Positions 12,621-34,891 of a DNA stretch of 41,535 nucleotides are shown in pieces. Each line of letters begins with the position of its first letter. The first letter of the stretch is position 1. The notes under the pieces are model-generated. The model searched no databases. It had not been told where the DNA came from and was given only the letters and a program-made list of their open reading frames with translations. Location: positions 1 through 41,535 of the forward strand of contig CATBDC010000037.1 in assembly GCA_949502235.1 (NCBI GenBank), read 5' to 3'. The position numbers and the translations under genes are program-made. This stretch comes from an uncultured Lachnospiraceae bacterium (GTDB lineage Bacteria; Bacillota; Clostridia; Lachnospirales; Lachnospiraceae).

Positions 12621-12647
12621 GTTACTGCGGACGGAATGAACAGTAAC
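12621..12647. repeat. short hairpin with GTTACTG/CAGTAAC ends
   Basis: GTTACTG (12621-12627) and CAGTAAC (12641-12647) are perfect inverted ends around a 13-nt loop. The same end sequence marks the 145-bp element at 16026-16170 and other short hairpins in the window. It lies in the untranslated leader of the LytTR regulator gene. Confidence 0.6.
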
Positions 12648-15334: not shown

Positions 15335-15925
15335 ATGAAAAAAAGGTGGATTGCAGGAGCCCTGGCCGGTTTCCTGGCCATGAATGTGCTGACAGTGTCA
15401 GCTCAGGATCTAAGTAATGTTGAGCCGGCAGGAAATACGGAGGTGACGGCAAATGTTTCAGGCAGCGGGGACGTTACATATCTTGTGTCTATACCGGAAA
15501 GGGTCAACTTCGGAACCTTAACCCAGCCTGAGAATAATACACAGGCCCATCCGGCGGTGAGAAGCTTTAACGTGGAGGCAGTGCAGATTACCGGACTGGA
15601 TGCGGCCACGCAGAGAGTCGTGGTGCTTCTTAAGGATGGAAGTAATGCAGGAGGCTTTCAGCTTACCGGGCAGAGCGCCTCTAACAGCGGGAAAGTACTG
15701 AACTATACTGTGTGCAATGAAACGGGTACAGATATTACGGGAGGAAGGCCTTATGACAACGGATATCTTCTGGCAGCATTTTCAGCCGGAGGACAGAATG
15801 TAGCCGGACAGCTAAAGCTGGAGCAGAACCAGCTCTACGGAGAAAATCTGGAGCAGTGGGCAGGAAATTATAAAGGAACGATAAACTTTTTCACCCGGGT
15901 GGCCTCCCTGGCGGATATTAACTGA
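15335..15925 (+). CDS. secreted beta-sandwich protein, WxL/pilin-like
   Basis: A 196-residue protein with a clear signal peptide (MKKRWIAGALAGFLAMNVLTVSAQ, cleavage after SAQ). The mature part has VTYLVSIPERVNFGTLTQP near its start and NYKGTINFFTRV near its end, a pattern of small secreted Ig-like or WxL-like proteins of Firmicutes that associate with cell-wall partners. A canonical tryptophan-x-leucine motif is not seen, so the WxL label is only a resemblance. It has no anchor of its own and may be held by the neighbouring membrane proteins. The ribosome site lies in GGAAGAGAAAGC before the ATG. Function unknown; export is well supported. Confidence 0.7.
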   Translation: MKKRWIAGALAGFLAMNVLTVSAQDLSNVEPAGNTEVTANVSGSGDVTYLVSIPERVNFGTLTQPENNTQAHPAVRSFNVEAVQITGLDAATQRVVVLLKDGSNAGGFQLTGQSASNSGKVLNYTVCNETGTDITGGRPYDNGYLLAAFSAGGQNVAGQLKLEQNQLYGENLEQWAGNYKGTINFFTRVASLADIN

Positions 15926-15939
15926 CAGGATGTAAGAGG

Positions 15940-16362
15940 ATGAGGCGGGCATGTATGCTTTTCTGCCTTCTGTTTATCCTTGAGGGGATGACAGTGCGGG
16001 CGGAAGAGAGCTTTTATGAAGGAAGGTTACTGTTCACACCCTACGGGTGCTCCAGTAACGGCATCCGGCCACCTAAAGTCACCTTCGGTGAGGGGCCGGA
16101 TGCAAGGCAGCCACTACTTCTTTGGCCGGCCACCGTGCAGCGTGGTGCACGGTGCCGTGTGAACAGTAACGAAGGAAGTACAGAGGTAACCGCCGCAGTA
16201 GAGATGCCAGAAGAAGATGGAGAAGAAAACGGAGAAGAAAAGAAAGAGGAGCAGTATTACCCCGTAAGCACCGGGGATGAAAATATAATATTTGTTCCTC
16301 TTATTCTGTTTCTTTTAAGCGGCATTGTACTGTTGGCAGAGGGAATAAAGCAGAAGGAATAA
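15940..16362 (+). CDS. small membrane protein with an in-frame palindromic-element insertion
   Basis: A 140-residue protein with a signal peptide (to ~22, VRAEES) and a C-terminal membrane segment (~116-134, FVPLILFLLSGIVLLAEG) after an acidic stalk. Residues ~29-77 are encoded by a 145-bp palindromic element (16026-16170) flanked by an 8-bp duplication; this part is rich in Arg, Pro and Cys, unlike the rest. Removing element plus one duplicate copy restores an 89-residue protein in which FYEG joins directly to STEVTAAVEMPEED. The ancestral form is thus a simple exported, membrane-anchored peptide. It lies 14 bp after the secreted beta-sandwich gene and 18 bp before the giant surface protein gene. 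Whether the enlarged protein still works cannot be told. Confidence 0.7.
   Translation: MRRACMLFCLLFILEGMTVRAEESFYEGRLLFTPYGCSSNGIRPPKVTFGEGPDARQPLLLWPATVQRGARCRVNSNEGSTEVTAAVEMPEEDGEENGEEKKEEQYYPVSTGDENIIFVPLILFLLSGIVLLAEGIKQKE
16018..16178. mobile_element. MITE-like palindromic element with 8-bp target duplication
   Basis: The element spans 16026-16170 (145 bp). Its ends GTTACTGTTCACAC and GTGTGAACAGTAAC are perfect 14-bp inverted repeats. It is bordered on both sides by GAAGGAAG (16018-16025 and 16171-16178), a perfect 8-bp direct repeat typical of a transposition target duplication. Inside are three hairpins: 16026-16059 (GTTACTG...CAGTAAC with CACCC/GGGTG), 16061-16103 (GCATCCGGCC/GGCCGGATGC with an inner TCACC/GGTGA) and 16131-16154 (CACCGTGC/GCACGGTG). 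It has no coding capacity for a transposase, so it would move in trans. Eight-bp duplications are made by IS66 and several other families; the mobilising transposase is unknown. Confidence 0.85.
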
Positions 16363-16380: not shown

Positions 16381-19300
16381 ATGAGACTTAGGAAAACGGG
16401 ATGGAAACGGATAGTCAGTGTCATAACAGCGCTCATCGTGACAGCTGCGCCTGTTTTTAGTTCCTTCGGGACGAAGGCGGAGGATACAGGCGAAAAGAAT
16501 ACAATGACAGACGCCCAGTACGCGGAGTTCGGGCTTGTAAATAATTCCCCGGCGGAATTTACGAGTGACGGACATCCTATGGAGGGCTATGAGCCGAAGG
16601 TGATATCGGAGCTTTACCTGTCACAGATGGGGCGCTATGATAACTGGAAGGGCGGCTTTGATGTCCTGGACAATACGGACGAGGTGTCAAAGGAAGCGTT
16701 TAATGTGGATACTATGGCTAAAAATGCCACTGTGGGAACAGGGGTTTCCTACAGCGCCAATAAGGATCAGGCGGAGGTGCAGACCCATAACGCCTGCGCT
16801 ATGGATTATGACGGAGACGGGGTTGACGAGATTCTGGATACGACTCTGTATGTAGATAAGATTTCCTTTGATAAGGATCCGAAAAAAAGAAGCTGTATGG
16901 ATGTTAAGGTATATGACTGCGTGGATGGAAAGTGGACGGAAAAAGGCAGCAAGAAATATGAGCTTGCAGACGGGAAGTCGGATAACTCCTGCTTTGTGGA
17001 CAGGATAGAGGCAGATGCCTCAAAGGGACTGGCAGCGATTACAGCATGGGACTATGACGGAGACGGGAAGGATGAGGGAGCGGTATATGTTCCCAGCCAG
17101 ATAGGGGATAATCCCTATATTTCTATCGTGAAGGCAGAGAACGGAAATATTAACGAGGTACACAGAATCTACCTTAAGGAGCTGAACGGAACAAAAAATA
17201 CCTTTGATTTTCATTATAAAAACTGGCAGGTGCCTATTGTAAGCCTTACTACAACAAAGATATCCGGATCAGAGGATCTGGTGATCAACGCGGGGCATCC
17301 CCTGAAATCCAATGACGGATACGGGGACAAGGGGCAGTGCTCAGCCATTGGAATTTTTCATTATAATAACGGAAACTTTGAGAAACCATACCTGGATTCG
17401 GAAATGACATATGGAAATGTCCGTATGCGCATGTGCCAGGCTGTAGACGCGGATCTGAACGGAAACGGCGTAGAGGAGCTGGTGATCGGAGGCTACAAGA
17501 ACGGGGGATGGAACAGTAACAGTGATGTGGGATGGCTTGCATCGGATAAAAATCTGATACAGCTTCTTTGCTGGGATGCGAAAAACGGAAAATATAAAAG
17601 GGTCTGGGATACTCCTAAGGAGGTGGAGGCCCGCGGCGGCCTTAAGACAGATCTTGAGATGACAGAGCCCGCGGCGCTTACGGCTGCAGCCCTTACGGCA
17701 AACAGCAGCATTGACTATGTATTTTTAGAGGGCAATGTATTTAAGTATAATGGGGCGTCCCAGGAGGGGGCGGATGAGAGAGCCCTGTATCAGAGCGGCT
17801 CCTTTGAGAAGAAACATTCCATGGAGCTTGGCGGCAGCCACAGCGCCTTTATCAGTACGGCCTATGGGGCGATGTTTTCTACAGGGGGCGGCCTTAGTGA
17901 GCAGATAGTAGTTCTTTCGGGTGACCATCAGCAGGCAAATAATGATAATATCTACTATGACATTGTCTGGATATGGGAAGAGAACGGGACAGTTACAAGC
18001 GCTGTCACAAATAATGATTATATCCATTGCAAAAATGAGGATGACAACGGCACCTTTGTAGCCATGTGTCCTTTAGATGCAGATGAGGATAAGGTAGTTT
18101 TAGAGTACAGGGGGAAGAACTACGGCTGGAGCGATCCGGTTCTTTACAGTGTCCTTCAGAGCCCGCCATATTGGAGCGAGCTGACATATAACAGTGAATC
18201 CTTCGGGGCAGGAAAGGTTTCCTATGAGGTTACCTACGGCAGTGTAAATGCCGTGGACGGCGACTGGGGGATCGGAGTCGGTACATATATGGAGGTGTCT
18301 GCGGTAGGAGGCGTTGGCGGCGGGGGAACTGACGTCATGTTCGGCGGCGGGATGGAGCTGGGATTTATGGCCAAATATGCAGGCAGCTACGGAACCTCTC
18401 ACGGGAAGACAGACTCTTACAAAATATCCATTCCGCCGGGGGAGGATCAGGCAGTCATCCTTGCGGTTCCCATGGTATCCCATCATTACAGCATGTGGGT
18501 TCCGGAGTATACGGTAACGGATGAGGATATTAAAAACTATAAGGAAATGTACAAGGATAATGAGAATGTACCGGAGGAATATACGGTATTTGCCATAGAT
18601 AAAGACACAGGAAAGCTCCTTAACGATAAAGGAACGGTCTATAAGGCCGGCGATACGGTGCCCGGACACTGGGAGGACTACAATGTATCGTCTACCTTTA
18701 CCCCTTCCTTCTCCCATATTTCCCTGGAGAAATATAATGAGCTTGCAGAAAGATATAAGAACAGGGGACTTCATAAGGTGGAGGATTCCCTTCTGACGGG
18801 CAAGACCATCGGGGATCCGTCTACCTATCCTTCCGAAAAGGAGAAGCTCTATGATCCGGCGCAGGTGGGCTCCTTATTTATCTCAAAAAATACGGCGACA
18901 GTAACGCCTGGAGAAGGAGAGCATGAGCTTTCCTATGAGGTGGAGGATGAGGAAGAGCTTTCTAACGGTTTCAGCTTAAGCTTTGACGGGTCTGTTTTTG
19001 CAAAGGCAATCTCAAGAGTCAGCTTTATAGCCTCTTCAGAGGGAGAGTTTGTAGCAGGGATTAAGGGAGAATTAGAAGGCGGTGCCTCCTGGATTACGAC
19101 CAACTCCAAAGGAAACGGATATTCCGCGTCCGTTGTGGATCTGGGAAAGGATGCCTCGGAGGATTATGGCTTTTCCACTCAGTTAGCAGTATTTGAGGCG
19201 AAGAATCTGCCCAAAGGAGACGGGGATTCACAGGGAGCCAGTGTGGTAGGCTATCTGGTGACCGGAATTGATGAGGCGACAGCGCCCCCGAAGCTTCCGG

Positions 19301-22300
19301 TGGATCTTCGGGTATACGGTACCACGAAAACAGCGGCGGCCCTTAAGTGGGAGGAAGCGGCGGGCCAGCGGGCAGCAGACTCCTATGAGGTGTTTATAAA
19401 GGATAATCTGGGAGAAACCAGGTCTCTTGGGAAGACAACGGATACCTACATGACAGCAGGAAACCTGTCTCCGGCCACGGAGTACCAGTTTGCGGTAAAA
19501 TCCTACAAAGGCCTCCAGTCAAGCTGTATGAGCCGATGGGTTACGGCAGTGACGAAAGGCGGCGGGGAGCCGGTGTTTACCAGACATCCGGAAAATGTTA
19601 TCGTAAGCTTAAGCTCTGGTGATGTGTCTGAAACGTCAGTTACCCTGACGGCAAAGGCAGAGCCCGGGGAGCCGGACGCAGAAGCGCTGGAGTATGAATG
19701 GCAGAAATATGAGCATGCAGATCTGACTATGGACGGAACCTGGGTAACCGCGGCGGACGGAACGGTAAGTGTAAGTGAACTGGGTGAGTCTGTCTATGAG
19801 CTTCCGGAAATAAACGGGACAGAAGGGTACCCTGCGTATTACCGTGTTATCGCTACCCAGAAAAAGGGAGGCGGGGTGAAAAGTGCTGTTTCTAAGACAG
19901 CAACAGTATTTATCAATGAAAGCGGTGATCCTTCCGTAAGCTATCAGGAGCTTAATATGGATCTTTGTATGGAGTCGGCTGATATTGTCCTTTCAGAGGA
20001 AGAGTCGGGCTTATACTATATGATCCGTGGAAATGCGGATGCAGATTTTAAGGTCGCTCTGGCGCCGGCAGCAGAAGGCGGGACGATTCCATCCGGCGGA
20101 GAGGTTCAGCTTATGTATTATAATGGGAATCAGATGCAGCTGTTTAAAGATGGAAGAGGCACCATAGACGGAAATGAGCTCTCTATTCATCTAAGCGGCG
20201 GCATAGGGATGGGAAGCTACGAGGTGGTGGCTGTTTACCCGGGAAATACAGGAACAGCCGGTGAAAGCATCCTCTATCCGGCAGCAGTGTCCAATCCGGT
20301 TTATATTAACGTATTAGATTCCTACCATATGGAGTATCATCTGAACGGAGGAAGCTCTCCGGCGCCGAACCAGGAGGCAGCTGTTTACGGCGGCGGGCAG
20401 GAGATGATAGGCGTGGATCTCATAAGTCCGTTAAAGGAAGGCTACAGCTTTGCGGGATGGTACAGTGATGAAGGACTTACACAGCCCTTTGAACAGCAGG
20501 TTGCTGACAGCGGAAGACGTTATGTGTATATCGATCCGATGCCATACGAAAGCAGCCATATCATAGATCTGTATGCAAAATGGGAGCCAGTGGAATACAC
20601 GATTGCCTACGAACTAAACGGAGGAGAAAACTCTCCCTTAAATCCGGGCAGCTATACCATAGAGAGCTATGGGATTACCTTTGCGGACGCCGTGCGTTCC
20701 GGTTATAATTTCGGAGGCTGGTATACGGATCCGGAGCTTACGGGACAGATCACATCCATTTCACAGGGAACAACCGGGGACATGGTTTTGTACGCGAAAT
20801 GGGAAGAGATTCCTTCCCTTCCCCAGGATGAGGATGGGGCGTATAAGATTACATGCTATGAGGATCTGGTATGGGCGGCACAGATGATCCGGGACTATCC
20901 GGAAATATACGCAGGCGCTTCCTATGTGCAGATGAATAATATTAACTGTAATGAGCAGGAGTGGGAGCTTCCAATCGGTACACAGGAGCATCCCTTCGAA
21001 GGAACCTATCAGGGAAATGATTACTATGTACTTGGACTAAAGCAGGGCAGCGGAAGCCTGGGAGGACTGTTCGGGGTTATCGGAGCAGGAGGCGCCGTAA
21101 GGAACCTTTCTGTTGTGGATTTTGATTATAAGGAATGGACGGATATAGCCGGAGGTGTGGCGGCCATTAACTACGGGCTTATCGATGGCTGCGGAAGTGG
21201 CGCGAATATCCATTCGGCAGCAACGATTTTCCGGGACGGCAAACCGGTGCCCATCAGCACTTTAAATTCCGAGATCAAAGGAACCTTCTATGCCGGAGGA
21301 ATCGCCGGGCAGAATGAAGGAGTCATAAAGAACAGCCACAGCAATGCACAGGTAACAGGCCAGACTGCCGGAGGAATCGCCGGGGTAAACAGCGGCAGTA
21401 TTCTGAATATTTACAATACAGGAAATGTAAGCGCAATGGCATCAGCCGGAGGAATCGCCGGGGCAAATACAGGGGCAGGCAGTATCCGGTATGGATATAA
21501 CAGTACTTCTGCATCTGTAAGCGGGGGCGGCACTCTTGGAGGGATTGCGGGTACAAGTGAAAATAGCAGTATTCAGGATATGTGGTATCTGTCAGAAATG
21601 TCCGGCGCCTGCGGCAATATGGAGGACAGTGCATTTGCATCTGCTGGTCCCAAAACAGAAGAGGAGATGCGTAATCCAGATTTTAAAGACCTTTTAAATG
21701 GGGCAGTGCAAGGGGAGAAGGATGCACTTGGCTTAAGAGACTGGGACATAAATTCAGGAAAGAACGGAGGCCTTCCCACGCTGGAGTATCAGGTCATAGA
21801 ACAACAGACCCTGTCTGCCTCCAAATTCGGAATTCACATTACTGTTACCGGACAGATCCATCCCGGGACAAAGCTTTCCTTTATAAAGCTTGACAAGGAG
21901 CATGAGGACTATCAGGCTATGAAGGACGCTGTGAATAATAAAAAGCTTACGGAGGGGTGGCAGCTGGCTCTTCTTAATGAGGACGGGACTTACGCAACCT
22001 GGAATGGAAGCCTTACGGTAAATATAAAGGCAGACAATCCCGGGGCGCTGGAAGGCTTACGTATTCTTCATAAAAACCCGGAAGGAGCCTACAGCGAGCA
22101 GGCCATAGAAAATCAGGCGGAGGGGCTGACCATTCAGACGGACTCACTTAATAACCTTGGGATTATGAAGGAGGAAGAAAAAGAAAACCCGGAGAATCCA
22201 AAGAATCCGGAAGAAACAGATAACACTGCGAAGAAACCGGGAGGAAACGCAGCCGCAGCAGGAAACGGCAGGAATCAGGCAGCAGGTACAGGGGACGAAG

Positions 22301-22395
22301 CTTCTCTTAGGGTAATGCTGGTTCTCCTCCTCTTATCAGGAGGGACAGCAGTTCTGGTTTCAGGGATTAGGAAAAGGCGTATTCGTCAGAGGTAA
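16381..22395 (+). CDS. giant multidomain surface protein (FG-GAP, FN3, InlB-type and GLUG repeats)
   Basis: A 2004-residue exported protein. A signal peptide (1-~35) is followed by FG-GAP/VCBS-like calcium-loop repeats (DYDGDGVDE ~142, DYDGDGKDE ~223, DADLNGNGVEE ~356), suggesting a beta-propeller. A Gly-rich region of unknown fold (~600-960) comes next, then a fibronectin type III domain (~970-1062) and an Ig-like domain (~1064-1180). Two InlB-type repeats ending in LYAKWE (~1316-1476) and GLUG repeats with AGGIAG (~1538-1740) follow, then a Pro/Glu linker. The C-terminus is TGD, one hydrophobic segment (~1979-1996) and RKRRIRQR, a sortase-type anchor in which a proper LPxTG is replaced by AAGTGD. 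It is probably an adhesin or glycan-binding protein; the ligand is unknown. Confidence 0.85.
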   Translation: MRLRKTGWKRIVSVITALIVTAAPVFSSFGTKAEDTGEKNTMTDAQYAEFGLVNNSPAEFTSDGHPMEGYEPKVISELYLSQMGRYDNWKGGFDVLDNTDEVSKEAFNVDTMAKNATVGTGVSYSANKDQAEVQTHNACAMDYDGDGVDEILDTTLYVDKISFDKDPKKRSCMDVKVYDCVDGKWTEKGSKKYELADGKSDNSCFVDRIEADASKGLAAITAWDYDGDGKDEGAVYVPSQIGDNPYISIVKAENGNINEVHRIYLKELNGTKNTFDFHYKNWQVPIVSLTTTKISGSEDLVINAGHPLKSNDGYGDKGQCSAIGIFHYNNGNFEKPYLDSEMTYGNVRMRMCQAVDADLNGNGVEELVIGGYKNGGWNSNSDVGWLASDKNLIQLLCWDAKNGKYKRVWDTPKEVEARGGLKTDLEMTEPAALTAAALTANSSIDYVFLEGNVFKYNGASQEGADERALYQSGSFEKKHSMELGGSHSAFISTAYGAMFSTGGGLSEQIVVLSGDHQQANNDNIYYDIVWIWEENGTVTSAVTNNDYIHCKNEDDNGTFVAMCPLDADEDKVVLEYRGKNYGWSDPVLYSVLQSPPYWSELTYNSESFGAGKVSYEVTYGSVNAVDGDWGIGVGTYMEVSAVGGVGGGGTDVMFGGGMELGFMAKYAGSYGTSHGKTDSYKISIPPGEDQAVILAVPMVSHHYSMWVPEYTVTDEDIKNYKEMYKDNENVPEEYTVFAIDKDTGKLLNDKGTVYKAGDTVPGHWEDYNVSSTFTPSFSHISLEKYNELAERYKNRGLHKVEDSLLTGKTIGDPSTYPSEKEKLYDPAQVGSLFISKNTATVTPGEGEHELSYEVEDEEELSNGFSLSFDGSVFAKAISRVSFIASSEGEFVAGIKGELEGGASWITTNSKGNGYSASVVDLGKDASEDYGFSTQLAVFEAKNLPKGDGDSQGASVVGYLVTGIDEATAPPKLPVDLRVYGTTKTAAALKWEEAAGQRAADSYEVFIKDNLGETRSLGKTTDTYMTAGNLSPATEYQFAVKSYKGLQSSCMSRWVTAVTKGGGEPVFTRHPENVIVSLSSGDVSETSVTLTAKAEPGEPDAEALEYEWQKYEHADLTMDGTWVTAADGTVSVSELGESVYELPEINGTEGYPAYYRVIATQKKGGGVKSAVSKTATVFINESGDPSVSYQELNMDLCMESADIVLSEEESGLYYMIRGNADADFKVALAPAAEGGTIPSGGEVQLMYYNGNQMQLFKDGRGTIDGNELSIHLSGGIGMGSYEVVAVYPGNTGTAGESILYPAAVSNPVYINVLDSYHMEYHLNGGSSPAPNQEAAVYGGGQEMIGVDLISPLKEGYSFAGWYSDEGLTQPFEQQVADSGRRYVYIDPMPYESSHIIDLYAKWEPVEYTIAYELNGGENSPLNPGSYTIESYGITFADAVRSGYNFGGWYTDPELTGQITSISQGTTGDMVLYAKWEEIPSLPQDEDGAYKITCYEDLVWAAQMIRDYPEIYAGASYVQMNNINCNEQEWELPIGTQEHPFEGTYQGNDYYVLGLKQGSGSLGGLFGVIGAGGAVRNLSVVDFDYKEWTDIAGGVAAINYGLIDGCGSGANIHSAATIFRDGKPVPISTLNSEIKGTFYAGGIAGQNEGVIKNSHSNAQVTGQTAGGIAGVNSGSILNIYNTGNVSAMASAGGIAGANTGAGSIRYGYNSTSASVSGGGTLGGIAGTSENSSIQDMWYLSEMSGACGNMEDSAFASAGPKTEEEMRNPDFKDLLNGAVQGEKDALGLRDWDINSGKNGGLPTLEYQVIEQQTLSASKFGIHITVTGQIHPGTKLSFIKLDKEHEDYQAMKDAVNNKKLTEGWQLALLNEDGTYATWNGSLTVNIKADNPGALEGLRILHKNPEGAYSEQAIENQAEGLTIQTDSLNNLGIMKEEEKENPENPKNPEETDNTAKKPGGNAAAAGNGRNQAAGTGDEASLRVMLVLLLLSGGTAVLVSGIRKRRIRQR

Positions 22396-34048: not shown

Positions 34049-34096
34049 ACTTAGATATTACTGTTCACACGGCACCGTGCACAGTAACACTTAGAC
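34049..34096. mobile_element. 32-bp miniature palindromic element with 8-bp flanking repeat
   Basis: The element 34057-34088 (ATTACTGTTCACACGG ... GTGCACAGTAAC) shares its first 26 nt, bar one base, with the reverse complement of the right end of the 145-bp element at 16026-16170. It is closed by AGTAAC. It is flanked by ACTTAGAT (34049-34056) and ACTTAGAC (34089-34096), an 8-bp direct repeat with one mismatch. This looks like a short derivative that also transposed. It sits in the scpA leader. Confidence 0.7.
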
Positions 34097-34864: not shown

Positions 34865-34891
34865 GTTACTGTAAACGAAGGGAACAGTAAC
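34865..34891. repeat. short hairpin with GTTACTGT/ACAGTAAC ends between scpA and scpB
   Basis: GTTACTGT and ACAGTAAC form a perfect 8-bp inverted repeat around an 11-nt loop, just upstream of the scpB ribosome site. No flanking duplication is visible (TTTGAGCA versus CACAGAGT). It has the same end sequence as the elements at 16026 and 34057. Confidence 0.65.

Follow-up and report, generated by a model that had tools for sequence, protein, structure and literature searches.

The window analysed here, a 41,535-nucleotide stretch of DNA from an uncultured Lachnospiraceae bacterium, raises the question of how a palindromic element of 145 bp came to lie within a protein gene that is still open across it. 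A sequence-only reading of the window had proposed a MITE-like element inserted in frame, and this main interpretation is supported by the terminal inverted repeats (TIRs), the target-site duplication (TSD), the presence of other copies, and the open reading frame. The observation of an in-frame element of 145 bp is confirmed. The explanation that we favor with high confidence is that a MITE inserted into a gene for an exported protein and that read-through would add 51 residues to the product. The features of the locus are as follows.

15335..15925, + strand: upstream ORF of 196 aa, 14 bp before the host ORF
15940..16362, + strand: host ORF, 140 aa with the element and 89 aa without it (ORF list, in silico excision)
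16018..16025, no strand: left copy of the target-site duplicate GAAGGAAG (8-bp direct repeat)
16026..16170, + strand: family A element, MITE-like, 145 bp (TIRs and internal hairpins, genome copies, RNA fold)
16026..16039, + strand: left TIR GTTACTGTTCACAC, 14 nt (arm comparison)
16061..16103, + strand: internal hairpin with outer stem GCATCCGGCC / GGCCGGATGC (pairing and RNA fold)
16079-16083 / 16087-16091, + strand: inner stem of the internal hairpin (pairing and RNA fold)
16157..16170, - strand: right TIR, 14 nt, perfect complement of the left (arm comparison)
16171..16178, no strand: right copy of the target-site duplicate GAAGGAAG (8-bp direct repeat)
16381..22395, + strand: downstream surface-type protein of 2004 aa with fn3 and List_Bact_rpt domains and a GTGDE-type C-terminus, 18 bp past the host stop codon

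The structure of the element and the presence of dispersed copies show that it belongs to a mobile family. The earlier description of a palindromic element, bounded by 14-bp inverted ends without mismatch and by a perfect 8-bp direct repeat, is correct to the base, and the arms at 16026-16039 and 16157-16170 are 100% complementary over 14 nt. The element has the short length without a transposase gene and the terminal inverted repeats (14 bp) by which MITEs are recognized, and family A also has the dispersed copies and the differing target duplications. A BLAST search of the element over its own genome (3.78 Mb in 101 contigs) gave 21 matches, 11 of them near-full including the copy in the host gene. 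The other ten near-full copies are 92-97% identical to the host-gene element. One near-full copy (L009), close to the edge of its contig, has an incomplete left end, so ten two-ended copies were counted, six of 145 bp and four of 146 bp. Perfect 8-bp duplications flank seven of the ten (L001, L002, L003, L004, L007, L008, and L010), while L005 and L006 have duplications matching at 7/8 positions and L011 has a 7-bp repeat instead. The seven perfect duplications all differ in sequence, as had been predicted for further copies of the element. Family A is therefore mobile.

Few copies of family A are within genes. Among the ten two-ended copies, the one in the host gene is the only one read through mid-gene. 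An element-encoded tail has taken the place of the end of a gene in L004 (from 278 to 288 codons) and of a frame in L007 (from 503 to 517 codons), the 5' end of the L007 frame being open in that locus. The L005 copy lies directly behind a stop codon. The remaining six are intergenic or, in the case of L002, L003, and L010, in places with an ambiguous ORF map.

The genome-wide searches covered two element families, and the second, family B (133 bp), has the same ends as family A. Thirteen family B elements (12 of 133 bp and one of 124 bp) were chosen for their perfect TIRs. Nine have 8/8 duplications (L010, L022, L025, L029, the first L037 copy, L039, L040, L048, and L049) and L019 has a 7/8 duplication, while in L026, L028, and the second L037 copy only two to four of the eight bases are alike. 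Eleven family B loci were mapped; the L026 element overlaps the end of a gene, which changes from 393 to 381 codons. At L010:1351-1653 a family B and a family A element are adjacent, with one copy of ATTAAATC between them and one on either outer side, as though one of the two targets duplicated by the first element had then received the second. At L037:2156-2326 two tandem 19-bp units of GTTACTGTTCACTCCGCTT directly precede a family B element that starts with the same 14-mer.

Related ends number in the hundreds in this genome. With up to two mismatches, the 14-mer of the TIR occurs at 321 sites in the whole genome compared to 25 for the reversed control, and with up to three mismatches it has 11 matches in the window, including the element's own two ends, where 1.46 are expected. 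A solitary 32-bp mini-element, ATTACTGTTCACACGGCACCGTGCACAGTAAC, lies at 34057-34088 just upstream of a ScpA gene, with flanks ACTTAGAT and ACTTAGAC alike at 7/8 positions; it is a deletion derivative and may still have moved. At 12621-12647 and 34865-34891 there are 27-bp palindromes whose ends, GTTACTG...CAGTAAC, recall the end unit of family B, and the 30 bases preceding 12634 resemble family B sequence.

The transposase that would move these elements was sought by domain and by position. PF00872 (Mutator/IS256-type) and PF13610 (IS6-type) domains are absent from the genome, in searches whose controls matched in six and five, respectively, of 14 known genomes, and IS256-type and IS6-type transposases were rejected as partners on this basis. 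The termini of the IS6 and IS66 families are associated with 8-bp duplications, and IS6 ends presumably share CTGTT in the same register as the ends of the element, but the lack of PF13610 sets the present case apart from IS6. Of the 321 end sites 100 were listed, and twenty stretches around selected ends contain mostly MITE-sized pairs and single ends. Inward-facing ends are found 0.9-1.6 kb apart in L199, L200, and L201 and 0.8 kb apart in L021. The coding content of these four wide pairs, a DUF6088 protein, a response regulator, ScpA, and an ORF with no Pfam match, includes no recognized transposase. Neither the two domain searches nor the four wide pairs revealed an autonomous relative with the same GTTACTGTTCAC ends.

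Related elements are also present in other genomes. A search for the exact element pattern across other genomes gave three stretches, all from one uncultured Dorea MAG, in keeping with the placement in Lachnospiraceae; the genome of this MAG has three copies. Two of these copies are identical to each other, occupy different sites, and have 8/8 duplications, and the third has a 7/8 duplication. A 2.9-kb block is shared at 97.4% identity between the Dorea MAG (L089:4882-7790) and the genome of the window (L003:1-2909), with the family A element at the same site in both. Comparison of the Dorea MAG with the flanks of seven other insertion sites and with pieces of two window genes gave five partial matches at 75-83% identity; no match spans a junction, and the window genes have none. 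The 2.9-kb block was probably transferred horizontally between the lineages, because its identity is so much higher than the 75-83% seen elsewhere. Three of five other genomes of the genus contain related elements, with eight matches in all; of four two-ended ones that were checked, three have 8/8 duplications and one has a 7/8 duplication. The element has no match in plasmid and phage collections. Its 14-bp end occurs in 74 stretches of a viral contig collection, with one match each, although a 14-mer is expected there by chance.

The insertion leaves the host ORF open because of its length and frame. The element and one duplicate add up to 153 bp, or 51 codons, and the earlier statement that no stop arises in the host frame holds for the 140-aa ORF at 15940-16362. 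By count, two target bases and the first element base form codon 29, the last element base ends codon 77, and the second duplicate supplies residues 78-79, in agreement with the proposal that residues 29 to 77, approximately, are element-derived. The host-gene copy is open in one of its six frames, and the six 145-bp copies together are open in 7 of 36, so about one in six insertions of such a copy in a gene would be read through. The idea that the 51 codons are a striking coincidence was rejected, since six of the ten two-ended copies are 145 bp long and 7/36 frames are open. The in-frame state is a mild filter.

The host gene probably encodes an exported, C-terminally anchored, surface-exposed protein, judging from features at the two ends of its sequence. 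Scripted removal of the element and one duplicate leaves 89 open codons. The sequence-only reading had described the product of excision as an exported membrane protein of 89 residues; the length and a C-terminal hydrophobic stretch are present, while the N-terminal signal peptide is recognizable by eye only. The ORF begins with MRRACMLFCLLFILEGMTVRA, which by eye resembles a signal peptide with a short hydrophobic core. In a hydropathy scan with 19-residue windows and a cut of 1.6, no window at the N-terminus exceeds the cut, and the peak above it covers residues 112-138. The C-terminus consists of PVSTGDE, a hydrophobic stretch, and a charged tail, and it resembles the GTGDE-type tail of the giant protein encoded downstream. 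The host protein is otherwise acidic, and the 51 added residues have a net charge of about +4 and two cysteines.

The proposed mechanism begins with a non-autonomous DNA transposon of a multi-copy family, which would have inserted with a transposase presumably acting in trans. The transposase would have duplicated the 8-bp target GAAGGAAG within the small gene for an exported, probably C-terminally anchored protein. The ribosome would read through because the element and the duplication total 153 bp and one of the six frames has no stop, and the mature protein would gain its 51 residues just behind the signal peptide. Translation would end only at the native stop, 18 bp ahead of the giant gene, and polarity on the giant gene would thus be avoided. 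The in-frame state has plausibly been kept since a frameshift would be polar on that gene. Most likely, the insertion is tolerated and not of benefit to the cell.

Searches for relatives of the host gene bear on whether it is functional. The 140-aa protein matches three of 60 other genomes, each solely within the element-derived residues, and no orthologue was found with the same 51-codon segment; the presence of that segment in orthologues had been named beforehand as evidence against insertion. Neither an empty allele nor an orthologue with the flanks of the host gene was found in 60 and 396 other genomes, five congeners, and the Dorea MAG, where the host region gave element matches only. 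Pfam and NCBIfam profiles do not match the host ORF. Its C-terminal half has weak matches in 13 of 396 other genomes of the family (E <= 0.05, best 1.8e-4). Seven of these, including the best three, are TGD-type anchor ends of other proteins (L106, L107, L108, L112, L113, L114, and L116), while the other six have no anchor-like end (L109, L110, L111, L115, L117, and L118). Among the neighbors, the 196-aa upstream protein has no match in the five congeners. For the giant protein, a search with residues 1 to 840 gave matches in 13 of 298 other family genomes, one of them strong (G114, 31% identity, E 4e-70), and no small ORF like the host gene was seen ahead of that relative. None of 27 pattern matches in the genome contig collection is a relative of the giant protein.

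These results leave some room for the possibility that the host ORF is degraded or non-functional, so that the element occupies what is in effect dead DNA and the open frame is luck. The host ORF has no homologue beyond the weak C-terminal matches, six of which are without an anchor-like end, and the odds of read-through by luck are about one in six. However, the signal-peptide-like start and the anchor-like end share one frame, and the ORF fits tightly between two others. A dead gene is therefore unlikely.

The RNA structure of the element suggests a second alternative, in which the insertion has been kept because the transcript hairpin makes the operon mRNA more or less stable, or changes how it is translated, and in this way tunes the gene for the giant surface protein. 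Such an effect of transcript hairpins is described for the NEMIS of Neisseria in PMC2229807. The predicted fold of 16018-16178 is strong (z = -5.09, with none of 200 shuffles equally good). In three diverged copies both ends have changed together, and five pairs have been kept through two-sided changes: three in the TIRs and two in the internal hairpin, both in the inner stem. But three related sequences account for all of the compensated changes, which may go back to a single evolutionary event, and pairing in the TIRs is predicted by transposase recognition alone. In addition, the outer stem is absent from the consensus structure of the diverged copies, the covariation term of that structure is only -0.56 kcal/mol, and a terminator-like site was sought in the 145-bp element and not found. 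Nothing in the window scores at or above the gathering threshold of an Rfam family. Regulation of the giant gene by the hairpin is doubtful, and insertion of a tolerated MITE accounts for the locus with greater probability.

It is very improbable that the element families are adapted to tolerance in genes and may seed new extracellular protein segments. The length plus the 8-bp duplication is a multiple of three for family A (145 to 153), family B (133 to 141), and the short family B element (124 to 132). This reading is disfavored because four of the ten two-ended family A copies are 146 bp long, because there are relatives of 110 and 146 bp, and because few copies lie in genes. If it were true, element families would supply protein segments; in the host gene the segment would be basic and contain two cysteines, within a surface protein that is acidic.

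An assembly artefact joining unrelated stretches through a repeat can practically be dismissed. Both families are repetitive, and contig ends fall 54-111 bp inside a TIR in at least six cases (C4, C20, C40, C53, C56, and C70 of G000, the window's genome, in the GTTACTGTTCACAC end), but a chimeric join is disfavored by the matching 8-bp duplicates at the two ends of the element, the in-frame continuity, and the operon-like spacing. The assembly seems to break at GTTACTGTTCACAC repeats, and copy numbers are thus probably underestimated.

Insertion of a MITE with read-through, the reading favored here, is a kind of event that is already known, while the family and the host are new. A literature search for the end sequence, covering text outside figures, found no paper, and no title or abstract start among those listed for Lachnospiraceae MITEs or Dorea repeats describes family A. 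With the present case, which has a clear duplication of an 8-bp target, in-frame insertion of MITEs is seen in a surface-type gene and in what is probably a gut Firmicute. Since the genome has hundreds of related ends, the question of whether such elements supply new protein segments can be tested by strain comparison and proteomics.

The suggestion that bacterial parallels are rare does not hold, as in-frame fusions are known for several MITE families (RPE, ERIC/RU, Correia, and QMITE). A 2007 review (PMC2229807) and a 2024 review (PMC10969869) describe in-frame gene fusions by RPE, ERIC/RU, and the 107-bp form of Correia. RPE resemble the present element in being palindromic, 105-146 bp long, open in frame, and inserted in frame in protein genes (PMC2229807). 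They are set apart by description, with the TSD entered as "?" in PMC2229807 versus the clear 8-bp TSD here. Nearly half of the RPE first reported were in ORFs, as stated in PMC10969869. In contrast, one of the ten two-ended copies here, that of the host gene, is open within an ORF; none of the other nine is read through mid-gene, and two replace C-termini.

The remaining families were likewise compared by description. ERIC/IRU/RU-1, RU-2, and RU-3 of enterobacteria are MITE-like units of 103-168 bp with open frames fused in frame (PMC2229807), and the fusions reported by Delihas 2007 include a putative exported protein (PMC2759123). ERIC differs in having a 7-bp TIR and TA termini in the account of PMC2229807, compared to the 14-bp TIR starting with GTTAC. 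Correia/NEMIS elements share the TIR, the TSD, hairpin transcripts, and a 107-bp form with gene-fused open frames, but PMC2229807 gives TA termini for them and not GTTAC. The QMITE of Coxiella are MITEs with in-frame insertions both in the middle of ORFs and at a 3' end, according to PMC5896051, and they are found in an unrelated host.
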